NCBI RefSeq assembly: GCF_026210795.1
Contig: NC_089453.1
Location: 2,978,501-3,042,500, forward strand
Source of the DNA: Rhizophagus irregularis
Lineage: Eukaryota > Glomeromycota > Glomeromycetes > Glomerales > Glomeraceae
DNA length: 64,000 nt
Reading direction: 5' to 3'
The position numbers were made by a program, and so were the translations under genes. This document shows, piece after piece, positions 3,801 to 58,039 of this stretch. Numbering within the stretch: position 1 is the first letter of the stretch; every line of letters starts with the position of its first letter. The notes under the pieces were generated by a model. It was not told the DNA's origin, did no database searches, and saw only the letters and a list, made by a program, of their open reading frames with translations.

Positions 3801-5500
3801 TCTAAGCCAATACTTGTTAGATTAATAACCAAGATATTACATATATTATTTATCGGGAAAATCGATTTTATTTTTGAGAATAACATCTTTTACAAGCTTT
3901 TGTTCAGAGACAAGTTAATTAATTCGCCAATTCTTTTATGTCAATAAAACTTATTAATAAATTTTCATTTTCACATTAGAATAAAATCTAACGTTGTTTA
4001 TTTTTCGAATATGATTAATATACTTTAGAACTATCTACAACTACGATAGTTTTAAGATGATTAGTTTGTGATAAATAAGTTCCACATGATATCGGTCAAT
4101 AAATTATTTAATAGACGGAGACGTTTTATGACTATATATTTTTTTTATAATAAACCTTTGACAATAACTTTCATTTAATAGTGTTGACAATTAATAATTT
4201 AAAATATAAAGTCTTAGTGATGATATGATATATATTTACTACATATAAGCAATTTCACTAATTACTTTTTCAATTAGTATTACTCCCTCTTTAAATTGTT
4301 CACAAACAATAAAGTAAAATATTAGATTAAATTGTCCTTTGTGTGTAACATTGTAATAAATTTATTTACATATAAAAGTTCTTATCTGTTATGCATTGTA
4401 ACTTACCTTTAAATAGTAAAATGCAGTAAATTTACATTATGAAGATATATTTATATCATTAACAAATGATATTTACACATAATAATTGTTATAAATATGT
4501 CCGTTATCACTTTTTATATTTAATCGTCATTTGTTATTTTTTGTTATTTAATGCATAATGACTGCTGAGAAATAGTAAACCAAAAATTCAGGTCATATAT
4601 ATGGATAATTAGGTAATTTCAATATCAGCACCACAATTTTATGTTCCATATAAAAATTCTAATTCGTTATAGCCAGTACTCGCCACTGGTTATAACGAAC
4701 CGGAATTTTGAGCATCCGAACCGAACTTAGCCAGCCCCTATATATTAGTCATATAATATTCTATAACGAACAGTCATGTGACTATTACTAATCCAGGCAA
4801 AATTTATAGTTCCGGCCAGGATTATTACGAAAATTTCGAAATTATAATTCTGGCCAGCACTACAAATTTATCCAGAAGTTCGGTATATTAATATACCGAA
4901 CTTAACCTCCTGGAACGGAGGGTTCCAGTGGCGACTGTAATAATTAAAATAACCTTTTATAGCGAACTTACAATTAAAAAAATTCGTTATAACCTTTTAA
5001 TTTTAAAATTCATTATAAAAATTATAAAAAAAAATTTCGTTATAGTATAAAGAGTGAACTTTAAACGAATAAAATTTAATTTATTTATATACTACATATA
5101 TATTTTTTATTAATTAAAAATATAACTGATAAATCAACTGGTGACATTTAGTAAAATTCATATTAAATATTTGAATATATTAATTTCAAATGGAAAGCAC
5201 TAATTTGATTTTCCGATTCTGAAACTGCCAAGATTTTACAGATAATAAATTAAAGTGACTTTAATTAGAATATTCTTGTAAACAAAATTTTCTTAAACCA
5301 AGTAAAATAAAAGTAAACATAAAATATCTTATTTGTTGCTTATTTTCAAAAGTCACTTTTATATGTTGCAATAAATCAAACGGACGAGCAAATAAAAGTA
5401 TTAAAATGCATACAAAAAAAATAGTTCGAAATAGGAAGTAACTGAATGTATTTATTTATTTACAGCAAATAAAATACTTATTTTCATTCAATTTTAATAA
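3672..5500 (+). repeat. Segmental duplication 1, copy A
   Basis: From the 3' end of the family relic to about 5.5 kb this sequence matches 22353-25200 in the same order and orientation, strongly to about 4.67 kb and more weakly after that. Differences are a MITE present only here (4679-4937), an inverted block (3951-4079 here against 23575-23660) and sequence present only in the other copy near 24.45-24.58 kb. No gene is visible beyond the relic. Confidence 0.7.
4679..4937. mobile_element. MITE present in copy A, absent in copy B
   Basis: A 259-bp block is bounded by near-inverted ends (TCGCCACTGG at the left, CCAGTGGCGA at the right) and TA on both sides. Copy B near 24.31 kb has an uninterrupted site. 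It also contains an internal palindrome around 4880-4905. Confidence 0.55.
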
Positions 5501-51746: not shown

Positions 51747-53000
51747 ATGGATGATAAGCTTTTACAAAAATTATCTCAAAATTTACTTGAGATATTGTAT
51801 GATGACGAATATTGTGATATTACTATTGAAGTTGGTGATGACCCTTACATAAAAATATTCCGAGCTCACATGGTCATTATTAATTATCGTTCTTCTTATT
51901 TGCGAAGAATTTTATCAACTAATAAAAAGAAAAATGATGGGACTTTAATACAAATTAAATTACCAAATATTTTACCAGAAATTTTTCAAATAATTTTAAG
52001 GTTTGTTGTTTTATATAAAAAATTATTATTTTATCTTTTTTTGAATGTGAATTAATTTTTTTTTTATTTTAGATATATTTATGGGGGAAATTATCTTTGG
52101 AAGAATATGATCCTTTAGTTATCATCAAAATTTTGGTTGCTGCCAGTGAATTAAGTCTTCAAGAATTGGTCGATTATATACAATCCTTTTTGACCAAAAA
52201 TAAAGCGGATTGGATGGAAGAAAATTTTAATTTGATATATCAAACAAGTTTTGAAAAAGATTCTTTCTTGGAACTTCAAAATTATTGTACTAACTTAATT
52301 TCTAACAATCCAAATAAGATATTTAAATCTTTAGATTTTTCTACAATTCCTGAAAATCTTTTAGTTTCACTCATCCAAAGTGATAATCTTCAAATGAATG
52401 AAATTCAAGTATGGGAAAATGTTCTTAAGTGGGGTTTTACTCAAAATCCTGATTTTCCTTCAAATCTTTCCAATTTTTCAAAAGATGATTTTAATTCTCC
52501 AAAGAATACTTTACAAAAATGTATTCCTTATGTCAGATTTTATAATTTAACTTCTAGAGAATTTTTTCGCAATGTGGTACCTTATAAAAAAATTTTACCG
52601 AAGGAATTATATATGGATTTATTAAAAACTTATTTGGATCCTGATGATGAACCAAATGATAAACCAAAACCTCGCAAAGGGATTAACAATAGTTTCAAAC
52701 TATCATCAGAAACATCATTACAATATCAAGTATTTATATTTATAAGAAAATTTATGTATATGAAGTAGAAAATCAAAAGGTATTGTTTAAATTATTCAAA
52801 TGTTTGTCTTGTAACTTACTTTTATTTGGATTTATATTATAACTTATAATTCTTGGTTTAAGAATTTTACTACATCAGATGGTACAGGTAGTGATGTTTG
52901 GATTAAGGATTTTTCTATATCAGATGATATAGTTGTTACGGAAGTTGGTGATGATGAAGTTCCTAAAAATTGGGAGGAACAATTAAAAGAATTTACATAA
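51747..53000 (+). pseudogene. BTB-BACK paralogue with a one-base frameshift
   Basis: Exon 1 51747-52000, intron 52001-52072, exon 2 52073-52729, probable intron 52730-52862 and last exon 52863-53000, which encodes NFTTSDGTGSDVWIKDF onward to EEQLKEFT and a stop. Exon 1 carries the BTB signature DDEYCDITIEVGDD; exon 2 carries the BACK region and ends in QYQ. Compared with the gene at 934-1918, exon 2 lacks one base just after GGGGGA near 52089-52090 (GGGGGAAATTA against GGGGGAAGATTA), so splicing in the conserved position leads to a stop about 15 codons later. Everything else stays in frame. It may be a young pseudogene or an assembly error. Confidence 0.75.
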
Positions 53001-53992: not shown

Positions 53993-56900
53993 TCAAATGT
54001 TATTTTTTAGAAAAAAACCTCGTTCAGACAATTTAAGAATATCTGGGTCAATTTCCAACTCTTGTAAATTATAATTTCGTATATATTCAACAATTTTATT
54101 ACATAATACATCCCAATTTTCTGATTTGAAATATTCATCCTTATATTTTTCTTCCAAGTAGTCTAACACCTTCTTTCTTGACATTTTTCGGGCATTATTA
54201 ACGTAATCATCATCATCATCTTTTTTAGCAATATCTGGAATATCCACGTGAATGACACCATTACATGAATCAACTATTTCAGCAACTAATTTATTTTCTT
54301 CGCGCATTTGTTTCACGTCCTTTTCACACTCTCCTTTATCTCTAAAGTTAGAAAACTTAGTTCTCACAATGGTGATATAATCAAGAATACCACTTTTAAA
54401 AATAGAATCCTTAATCATATTAAATGTGTTTATTTCGTCTCCTGTAAATCTACCATCAATCACATATAAAACATGGCTTATCCCCTCTGGCATTGAAAGG
54501 ATTCCTTCTGCTATTTTAAATAAAATATTCTCGGTACTTAGTTTAGAACCTCCAACTGCAATAGTATCAACTACGCGAAAATTTTTCGCATTCCATTCAA
54601 AATCAATCTTATTAAAACTTTTAGTTTGACTAACTGTGTAAGCGCTTTCCTTGAAATTCCTAGTGTCAGTTAGAACATTAACCAATGTGGATTTACTACC
54701 ACCAGTGCGACCAACCATTAATATATTCCTGAAGTTTTCAATTTTTCGAGTAATAATCAAGTGTTGTTTTTGGTCAGAAGTTTCTACCTCGATAGATTTG
54801 GGACAATAACTTAGGTCAAGACTAGTTAATTTACTGCCAGTACAATCAAGAAAGTCTAAGTTGGAACAGTTACTTAAATCTAATTTATTTAATTTTTTAT
54901 TATTTAAACAAATGAGTTTTTTGATATTCGGACAAAGATTAAGACTTAATTCCTCAATTTTAGTATTCGAACAATTGAGCTCACCAAGATCACTAACTTC
55001 TAACTCAGCTAACCTCTTAGTTGATGAACAATCTAGCTTAGTCAATTTTGGGCACTTTCTTATAGATAAACTCGTAAGTTTAGGAAACTTAAAAAATCCA
55101 GTAATCTGATTAAGTTGAGAACAATCACTTATTTCTAAATAAGTTAACCCAGATGGTGAACAATCAAACATGGTTAGATTTGAACATTCAATAATAGATA
55201 AACATTCAAGTCTAGGAAATACTGACAAGTTAAAAATCTTTTTGAATTGAGAACAATTGCTTATTTTCAAACTTTTCAGACTAATTAACTTAGTTAGCGA
55301 ACAACCATCCGTGGTTAGTTTTGGACAATCTCTTACAGATAAACTCGTAAGTTCAGTAAGTTCAGACAAGTCAACCTTATTAAGTTGAGAACAATTATTT
55401 ATTTTCAAACTATTTAACTTAAGATCCTTCAAACTAATAATTTCTAAATTATTAAAGCCTTCTATTTTTAAAAAACCTTCTAAATTTTTAAACTCGAATT
55501 CTAGTTTTGTAAATTCGAATTTTAAAAAACTAATTATGCTTTTGCTACCATCAATAACTATCTCTTTCTCATTCGAGTATTGAGTATTAAACTTTTCTTG
55601 TTCTTTTGAAATTTTTTGTTTGCCATCTGTAAATTGATTTAAGTTTATAAATATTTTATTTTCAAAAATATTCACATTAATATAAATTACCTTACCTGAC
55701 ATTTTTGATTGAACAACAGATGTTTGGTATTGTGAGCTCGAATTGCTCTCAGGCTTTACGTTAATATCTAAATCTACTGATAACTTCTTATTTATATCCG
55801 TAGTTCTTTCACTTGATTTTGAAATTGATTTATAATTTTTTTCCAATTTATGCTTATCTAGTATAATTAAACTAAATTCATCAGTTTTTCTTTAAATTCG
55901 TTGTTTACATTAAATTATTTTGTATCTGTATTTAAAATTTTATATACCTTCAATATCAGGACTTGACTTTGGTTCACCATTCTGATATTCTTGAGATGAA
56001 CCCTCAATTGGTTCTTTTTTACGACTATCTTTAACGCGTAAGCCGTTATCATCAATACTAAGATGTGGAGATTGTAGATCTGCAATTTCTACCAATATCA
56101 GTAACAGATTATTAGTAAAAATTCATTCTAATACTAATCAATATTATTAAATTTACTTACTTGTAGTATTTGCTTTTTCCACTACAATCTTACTAAATAA
56201 ATCATCACATTTTTCTAATTTGTAATATTCTTCCTGACATTCTTTCTCCAAATAGTTTAGTAATATATCTCTTGACCTTTTCCTTGCATCTCTATTAACA
56301 ATGTTTTCATCTTCATCACAAGTAAATATTGGAGGATTTTTTATGCAAATGGTATCATTGCATGACTTAGCTATTTCGGCGATTATATCATTTTCTTCAA
56401 GCACATTTTTAAAATTATCAAATTCATTTTTAACAATAGTAACATATTTAAGAATACCACTTTCAAAAATAACTTGTTTAAATAACTTAAACATTGCCTT
56501 CTCTTCTGTCGTAAAACTTTTGTCAACCACAAATAAAATTTGACTTATCCCTTCTGGCATCAAATGTCTCATTTCATCATAAACTTTCTTTTCAATTGAT
56601 TCAAATACAATTTCAATCACATTATATATTGATCCATTCCACACGAAATTTTTTTTCTGTAAATTTTTAATATTGTTAATTGTATATCCATTTTTCCCAA
56701 TATCATCAGTACCACATAATACGTTGGATAATGTCAAAGCACGCCCAACTATGAGCAAATTTCCTAGTTATTAGAATAATTGAGTTTGGTAATGTTCAGT
56801 ATTGACATTATGTAGTAAAATTTACTGTTATTAACAAATTATACTTACTGGGTTTTAGATAATTAGAAGAAATATAGAACCTGTCAATATCCGGATTACT

Positions 56901-58039
56901 ATCGCGTGTATTAGGTGGTGGATATTGTGTATCAAAAGGATCCTTAGGGTTTAATCGAATTAAAATTTCATATACCTCTTTAATATTGGGCCTTGTTTCT
57001 GGTTTGTCATCCCAACATTTTTGATAAAGTTCTTGATAATTTGGAGGTGTACCCTCAATTGGATCTTCTCTAAGATTTTCATGACTAATGCGAAGAGCTA
57101 ATGTATTATCATGTGAATAATTAGAAAAAGGAGGGCGCCCACTTGAAATTTCCCATAATAGAACGCCTAAACTATAGATATCGGACTTCTTGTCTTTTTT
57201 ATACTTGATATTCTTAAGAAGTTGTGGTTCAGTATATTCAATCACCCCCTTTCCATTACCCAGTGGATTACTATCTTTCAACTTTTTAGATAATCCAAGG
57301 TCTGCGATTAATAATTTTCTATTATTCACTAATATATTTTTTGAGTGCTAGAAATGATTGTACAGTATTTATTAAAATTATCTTCAAAAACAAAAATAAA
57401 AACAAAATATTATTAAGTAAATACTCTTTTACCAAGTCTCTATGTATTATTTCTTTGGAATGTAAAAATCTCAATCCATTAGTAATATCCAATGCCATTC
57501 GAATTTTATCATTCCATTCTAAGGAATCAAATCTTTTTTTCAAATAATCTCTTAAATTCCCTTCATTAGCATATTCCAACACCAAAACATAATTCTCAGA
57601 ATCTGTTAATTTTAAACATAAATTAAGTTAGACTGAATTGTATAAATAAATTATTTAAAAAAATTCTTAACATAAACCTTTTGTTATTCCCAGAATACGA
57701 TTTATGTTTTCATGATAATCAACCTCACGTAGGAGTTTTACCTAAACAAAATGAATAATAATATTAATATTATATATACATACACCAAGATAATACAACA
57801 TAAAAAGTGATTTCTACCTCATTAACAAGCTCATCATTATCCTCATTAATTTCTTTTGAACTTTTATTAAAAAGAATTTTTAATGCGACCACTAATCCCG
57901 TTTCAACAAAATTCGCTCTACTCACTTTACCGAAAGCTCCACTACCAATTTCAATGATTTGACTAAATTTATTATATTCAAAATAACGAATGTGCTCATT
58001 ATTTATCTCTTTCTCAATCCATTTTTTTACCGAAGCCAT
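53993..58039 (-). CDS. Kinase / degenerate AIG1 / LRR / AIG1-GTPase fusion protein, seven exons, 1187 aa
   Basis: Exons: 57818-58039, 57678-57741, 57433-57602, 56849-57347, 56161-56763, 55948-56088 and 53993-55857. All introns are GT-AG, every phase agrees and the total is 1188 codons. Residues 1-about 290 are a TKL-type kinase: IGSGAFGKV (31-39), K54 in VALK, HRDLHSKN (149-156) with D151, DLG at 168-170 where DFG is usual, and EPQ at 192-194 where APE is usual. Residues about 319-520 resemble an AIG1/GIMAP-type GTPase (LLIVGR, LSNVLCGTDD, MPEGISQILFVVD, FTTEEKAMFKLFK) but lack the P-loop Gly-Lys-Ser. Residues 690-930 are leucine-rich repeats with a CSQLN or CPKLT cysteine every 20-25 residues. 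Residues about 940-1150 are a second AIG1-like domain with GRTGGSKST (Ser for the usual Gly before Lys) and DTIAVGG. The start is the ATG at 58037-58039. It probably acts in cytosolic signalling; the partner and trigger are unknown. It could be two genes mis-joined at exon 6. Confidence 0.75.

Follow-up and report, generated by a model that had tools for sequence, protein, structure and literature searches.

A predicted kinase–GIMAP–LRR gene of Rhizophagus irregularis with altered GTP-binding motifs

Gene model and predicted domains

The window (the whole 64,000-nucleotide stretch of Rhizophagus irregularis DNA that was analysed) carries on its minus strand a predicted gene whose product would combine a protein kinase domain, a GIMAP-like AIG1 domain (AIG1a), a linker, leucine-rich repeats (LRRs) and a second AIG1 domain (AIG1b) (Table 1). 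The original prediction had described seven exons that stay in phase for 1188 codons, and this was borne out: the spliced model comprises 3564 nt, equivalent to 1187 amino acids plus a stop, with no internal stop over the 1187 codons. The consensus splice sites were likewise confirmed, all six introns being GT-AG and 72–90 bp long.

Table 1 Coordinates of the predicted gene and its features in the window.
Feature	Position	Strand	Basis
Whole gene, kinase–AIG1a–linker–LRR–AIG1b	53993..58039	(-)	Seven exons, 1187 aa
Exons 1–3	58039-57818, 57741-57678, 57602-57433	(-)	Spliced model
Exons 4–7	57347-56849, 56763-56161, 56088-55948, 55857-53993	(-)	Spliced model
Protein kinase domain, exons 1–4	56964..57958	(-)	Pfam PF07714 2.5e-53 and motifs
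AIG1a, GIMAP-like domain, exon 5	56161..56763	(-)	Similarity to relatives' domains
Linker like duplicated kinase C-terminal tail (EPIEGSSQEYQNGEPKSSPDIE), exon 6	55948..56088	(-)	Alignment
Predicted deletion scar	55826..55835	(-)	Flanks align to paralogue L001 at 4259 and 3054
Leucine-rich repeats with recurring Cys, exon 7	54749..55483	(-)	Pfam LRR models over cut-off
AIG1b, GIMAP-like GTPase domain	54257..54730	(-)	Pfam PF04548 2.3e-17

The HMM search proposed with the original prediction found the kinase, the LRRs and the C-terminal AIG1 domain above cut-off when run with Pfam on the joined protein. The kinase matched PK_Tyr_Ser-Thr over residues 30–280 (181.5 bits against a cut-off of 23.1) with its motifs intact (G-loop IGSGAFGKV, VALK, HRDLHSKN and DLG); it is a putative member of the TKL group, the label used in the original prediction. 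Five LRR models exceeded their cut-offs within residues 714–853, placing the repeats between the two AIG1 domains as had been proposed, and AIG1b scored 63.5 bits (cut-off 27) over residues 943–1100. The exon 5 domain, which had also been called AIG1-like, is weak when taken alone (E 0.011, 15.5 bits) and clear through its relatives, being 74% identical to the corresponding domain of the closest paralogue, L001, and 42–62% identical to seven others. Run against solved structures, a profile of nine AIG1a-type domains gave 13 matches at E 0.01: EngA, a GTPase, ranked first and GIMAP7 second, and GIMAP2 and GIMAP5 were also matched. Exon 5 is thus assigned to the AIG1 type because of its relatives, its own Pfam score lying below the cut-off of 27.

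Several observations bear on whether these parts form a single gene. An in-phase join is by itself weak evidence for one gene, because many shuffled sequences also connect: exons 4 and 5 were joined in phase in 219 of 500 shuffles, exons 5 and 6 in 232 and exons 6 and 7 in 206, and exons 5 to 7 together in 498. The real splice-and-codon scores were matched far less often, by one shuffle in 500 for exons 4–5, two for exons 5–6 and none for either exons 6–7 or exons 5–7 together; these scores use splice weights that were chosen manually once the window introns had been viewed, and so favour the window somewhat. A gene finder that used the same weights, and whose codon scores were derived from 11 long frames at paralogous loci, predicted one gene of 1165 aa in the window without a homology bonus, departing slightly from our model where exon 2 ends and where exon 5 starts; with the bonus, it gave exactly the 1187-aa model. 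Without the bonus, it recovered the window, L001, L002 and L011 as whole genes and L003, L005, L010 and L025 in part, and modelled L007 and L008 without a kinase. It may also over-join, since its L004 model consists of two LRR-AIG1 units linked through micro-exons. With a different intron 6 acceptor the last two exons would not stay in phase, a reading that was rejected; the acceptor that ends at 55858 keeps the phase, and an aligned AG is present in L001, L007 and L008, of which the L008 model takes this AG and the L001 and L007 models take later acceptors. The single gene-finder gene and the Pfam matches on the joined protein support one predicted gene with the order kinase, AIG1, linker, LRR, AIG1 in one polypeptide, as originally claimed.

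A paralogous family and the second kinase

Searches of the genome (146,748,485 bases in 32 contigs), in which only the best candidates were scored, gave 91 matches to AIG1 at E 0.01 (the window included, and several being pieces of one gene). Exon 7 gave 66 matches at E 1e-6 and exon 5 gave 46 at E 0.001, both counts again taken from the best candidates scored and including the window and gene pieces. We examined 29 loci around AIG1 matches, together with 14 loci around kinases close to that of the window. An upstream kinase match was found at 9 of the 29 AIG1 loci, where homology-guided models joined it to the AIG1 part in one frame; at the other 20, no kinase was found ahead of the AIG1 part within the stretch examined. 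The predicted order of the window gene recurs in L002 (1140 aa) and L003 (1258 aa), while in L001 (1461 aa) AIG1a and the LRRs are separated by a second kinase. Homology-guided models gave kinase-kinase-LRR-AIG1 for L007 and L008, kinase-AIG1-AIG1 for L010 and L011, and, for L005 and L025, kinase-AIG1-AIG1-AIG1 with a partial kinase where the stretch ends. L006 and L009 are LRR-AIG1 genes, without an upstream kinase over about 2.6 kb and about 3.9 kb, respectively. These predicted arrangements support the existence of a family in which a kinase head is joined in one frame to AIG1 domains, LRRs and sometimes a second kinase. A cluster of LRR-AIG1 and kinase-AIG1 genes lies near one end of a 5.26-Mb contig (G000:C10:16500-180500 and 642800-649500).

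The 14 kinase loci gave no match to AIG1. Among them, L031 has the order kinase-kinase-LRR, and L037, L038 and L042 carry a second kinase. An MLKL_N match lies downstream of the kinase in L034 (27.8–28.0 bits against a cut-off of 27) and, below that cut-off, in L039 (26.6 bits). The predicted 1270-aa product of L034 (L034:351-4663; G000:C1:1228300-1233000) comprises, in one frame, a kinase, the MLKL_N four-helix domain, a long unassigned part in which MACPF is weakly matched (19.6 bits, below the cut-off of 27.5) and LRR-like sequence. Across the genome, MLKL_N gave 71 matches at E 0.001 among the best candidates scored, 61 of them over cut-off, and none in 14 control genomes. L032 and L033 (G000:C18:840000-845500 and 826500-832000) encode near-identical predicted stand-alone kinases of 337 aa, perhaps through a recent duplication.

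Trees were built for the kinases (32 rows, kinases of this genome only) and for the AIG1 domains (23 rows). The kinases of the window and L001 are sisters (100/99), as are those of L002 and L011 (100/99). In the AIG1 tree, by contrast, AIG1a of L002 groups with the window, L001 and L003 (100/99), and the L011 AIG1 domain groups with L010 (100/99). Because the two trees conflict, the kinase and AIG1 parts appear to have had different histories, which suggests that modules were swapped among family members.

Pfam found one kinase stretch in the window chain and two in that of L001, so that the window gene is without a tandem kinase. The two loci align over 58093-55835 of the window (78% across 2448 columns), and alignment resumes at 55826; between the two corresponding points L001 carries ~1.2 kb that encodes its second kinase domain. 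The upstream flank of this scar also aligns with the sequence that directly precedes the second kinase of L007 and of L008, and its downstream flank with the sequence that follows this kinase in L001 and in L008. A single clade (100/100) unites the second kinases of L001, L007, L008 and L031, and in the trees of the kinase and of both AIG1 parts the sister of the window is L001; loss is for these reasons simpler than repeated gain, and by parsimony the window copy would have lost its second kinase through an in-frame deletion of ~1.2 kb from an L001-like form. The reading frame is kept across the deletion. A run of GAAAAA occurs in both flanks in L008, which would fit a microhomology deletion; in L001 none was seen downstream. 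The linker of the original prediction is present and needs to be reinterpreted as a scar, exon 6 resembling a duplicated kinase tail and the start of exon 7 joining the flanks of the second kinase. After this tail, the intron donor that is GT in L001, L007 and L008 reads AT in the window, where the model takes a GT 22 nt upstream, adjoining a 2-nt gap. In the second kinases of L001 (L001:3120-4234) and L008 (L008:2749-3872), HCD stands in place of HRD, which is present in L007 and L031.

GTP-binding motifs, constraint and alternative readings

The P-loop of a working GTPase, GxxxxGK[ST], is found in neither of the two window AIG1 domains. In AIG1a, GK[ST] is missing and the sequence reads VGRALTLSN (56749-56723), with a 12-nt gap relative to L001; in AIG1b it reads GRTGGSKST (54715-54686), with GGSKS where L001 has GGGKS. 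Outside the window, 45 AIG1 matches were surveyed, and GK[ST] is kept in 42 of the 43 that cover the P-loop (the exception being in L026), compared with 0 of 2 in the window. Because the searches behind this set tend to find typical domains, degenerate copies may be under-sampled. The G3 switch motif of AIG1b is DTIA (54574-54548), and not the DTIG of L001, L002, L004 (frame at 4154), L006 (frame at 2629) and L007; G3 is also degenerate in several other family members. Changes of this kind in the P-loop and switch would be expected to impair GTP cycling. With both P-loops damaged, we infer that the window copy cannot cycle GTP normally, and it is probably not a working GTPase switch. Of the second AIG1-like GTPase that had been predicted, the domain assignment stands (2.3e-17); with GGSKS and DTIA, the domain may not be a working GTPase.

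When the window is aligned with L001, 24 of the 26 gaps in exons are multiples of three, compared with 5 of the 12 in introns; the two exonic exceptions lie in exon 6 (56031, 1 nt) and exon 7 (55674, 10 nt, where the L001 model has an extra intron). dN/dS between the two ranged from 0.44 to 0.97 by segment. For the kinase, we counted 10 synonymous and 29–42 non-synonymous changes on the window branch (9–12 and 24–34 on the L001 branch), and the branch counts of AIG1a and the LRRs lean the same way. For AIG1b, the window branch has 14–17 synonymous and 22–23 non-synonymous changes, and the L001 branch 6–10 and 23–24. Constraint on the window copy is thus present but weak, given the dN/dS range and the kinase branch counts, and decay is possible.

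The exons could instead belong to two neighbours, a kinase-AIG1 gene (exons 1–5 or 1–6) and an LRR-AIG1 gene in exon 7 that begins near M619 (55702). Exon 7 could be such a separate gene because L006 and L009 are LRR-AIG1 genes that lack an upstream kinase match; a TATATAAAA motif at 55946-55938, and a stop reached two codons beyond the last whole codon of exon 5, are also consistent with this division. Against it, the distance is 303 bp from exon 5 to exon 7 and 459 bp from exon 5 to M619, and the same two parts lie 50–74 bp apart in L002. Two AIG1 domains share one open frame in L010 and L011, and the part of exon 7 that precedes M619, its first ATG, aligns with modelled coding sequence that follows the second kinase of L001 and of L008. 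Together with real junction scores that were matched by at most two of the 500 shuffles, these points make two genes unlikely. A protein of the Roco/LRRK type would contain the same three kinds of domain, LRR, GTPase and kinase, and is highly improbable here, since neither Roc nor COR was matched by the window protein at E 0.01, its GTPase is of the GIMAP type and its kinase comes first.

A further reading, doubtful yet deserving more weight than either of these, is that the window copy is decaying, with an open frame and no selected role left after the loss of the second kinase and both GTP sites. Damage to both P-loops where nearly all of the other domains surveyed are intact, the missing kinase and the weak constraint all argue for it. 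Against it stand the 1187 codons without an internal stop, the mostly frame-keeping exon gaps and the intact kinase motifs. AIG1b, moreover, is no less constrained on the window branch than in L001 and seems the more constrained there, which is a poor fit to simple decay of that domain.

Known systems and a proposed role

GIMAP-type GTPases are associated with immunity in both plants and animals, the repertoires of NLRs are variable and clustered, and Roco/LRRK proteins combine LRR, GTPase and kinase. The window protein resembles GIMAP/AIG1 GTPases (PF04548) in the Pfam score of AIG1b and in the GIMAP matches of the AIG1a profile, and is unlike them in that its AIG1 domains are fused behind a kinase and around LRRs and have damaged P-loops. 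It differs from Roco/LRRK proteins in its N-terminal kinase and in the lack of a Roc-COR match, so the contrast drawn in the original prediction held. Pfam likewise found neither NB-ARC nor NACHT in the window protein at E 0.01 (in L002, there was one weak NB-ARC match of 16 bits against a cut-off of 23.5). As the defining domains of both groups were tested and not found, the window protein falls outside the NLR and Roco families. L001, L007 and L008, with two kinases in one predicted chain, recall the tandem kinase proteins of plants; the window copy differs from these in having one kinase, with AIG1 and LRR parts attached.

NLRs have a tripartite plan (PMC10197012), and the window chain is like them in joining a signalling domain, an NTPase-type domain and repeats, the NTPase here being of the GIMAP type. 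The same host group, Glomeromycotina, has an expanded AIG1 family that includes AIG1-Hint (C46) proteins, in which the partner is Hint rather than kinase or LRR (PMC8778642). One R. irregularis AIG1 gene, which need not be the window gene, is reported to be up-regulated when isolates coexist (PMC7490403). The accessible parts of PMC7490403, PMC8778642, PMC12258605, PMC8647823, PMC10234402 and PMC10197012 describe no kinase-AIG1 fusion, and no description of a kinase-AIG1-LRR fusion was found in the literature searched, which included few subscription papers, no bioRxiv preprints and some sources in part. A prokaryotic source of the AIG1 part was not supported by a ten-domain contig scan, which yielded 54 pattern matches and no confirmed relative; the scan used two short peptide patterns only, so absence is not demonstrated.

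The reading that we favour, at slightly better than even confidence, is that the window copy is a member of a kinase-GIMAP-LRR family that has lost its second kinase, that the family is NLR-like, and that the GTP switch is impaired in this copy. By analogy, the family would work like an NLR, with a kinase output, a GIMAP-type switch and an LRR sensor, an arrangement that recalls the immune receptors of plants and animals. The LRRs between or beside the AIG1 domains may bind a ligand or a self/non-self protein, upon which the GIMAP-type domains would change state and oligomerise with GTP. Clustered in this way, the kinase at the N terminus could then phosphorylate downstream targets. The window copy itself might serve active paralogues as a partner or decoy that is kinase-competent yet switch-dead, or it might be an open-frame copy in early decay. 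We infer, in line with the original prediction, that its product would be a cytosolic sensor or signalling protein. A link to cell death is circumstantial, because it draws on the similar kinase that adjoins MLKL_N in L034 and, with a match under the cut-off, in L039.

The predicted family would bear on the recognition of self, partners and parasites by multinucleate mycorrhizal fungi. A broader and tentative proposal, which we consider on the whole improbable, is that arbuscular mycorrhizal fungi have an NLR-like repertoire of their own, in which a GIMAP-type GTPase takes the place of NB-ARC or NACHT. The kinase would be the usual head and the LRRs the sensor, while recombination in gene clusters would exchange modules, second kinases and MLKL-type four-helix domains among them; copies with a dead switch, like that of the window, might act as partners or decoys. 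A shuffled kinase-GIMAP-LRR family, with relatives that carry MLKL-type domains, offers concrete candidates for such recognition and, if the proposal is true, would extend GIMAP-type GTPases to receptor-like fungal proteins.

Elsewhere in the window, two adjoining open frames on the plus strand (51747-52765) matched BTB (5.9e-11) and BACK (6.9e-9) and probably represent one BTB-BACK gene.
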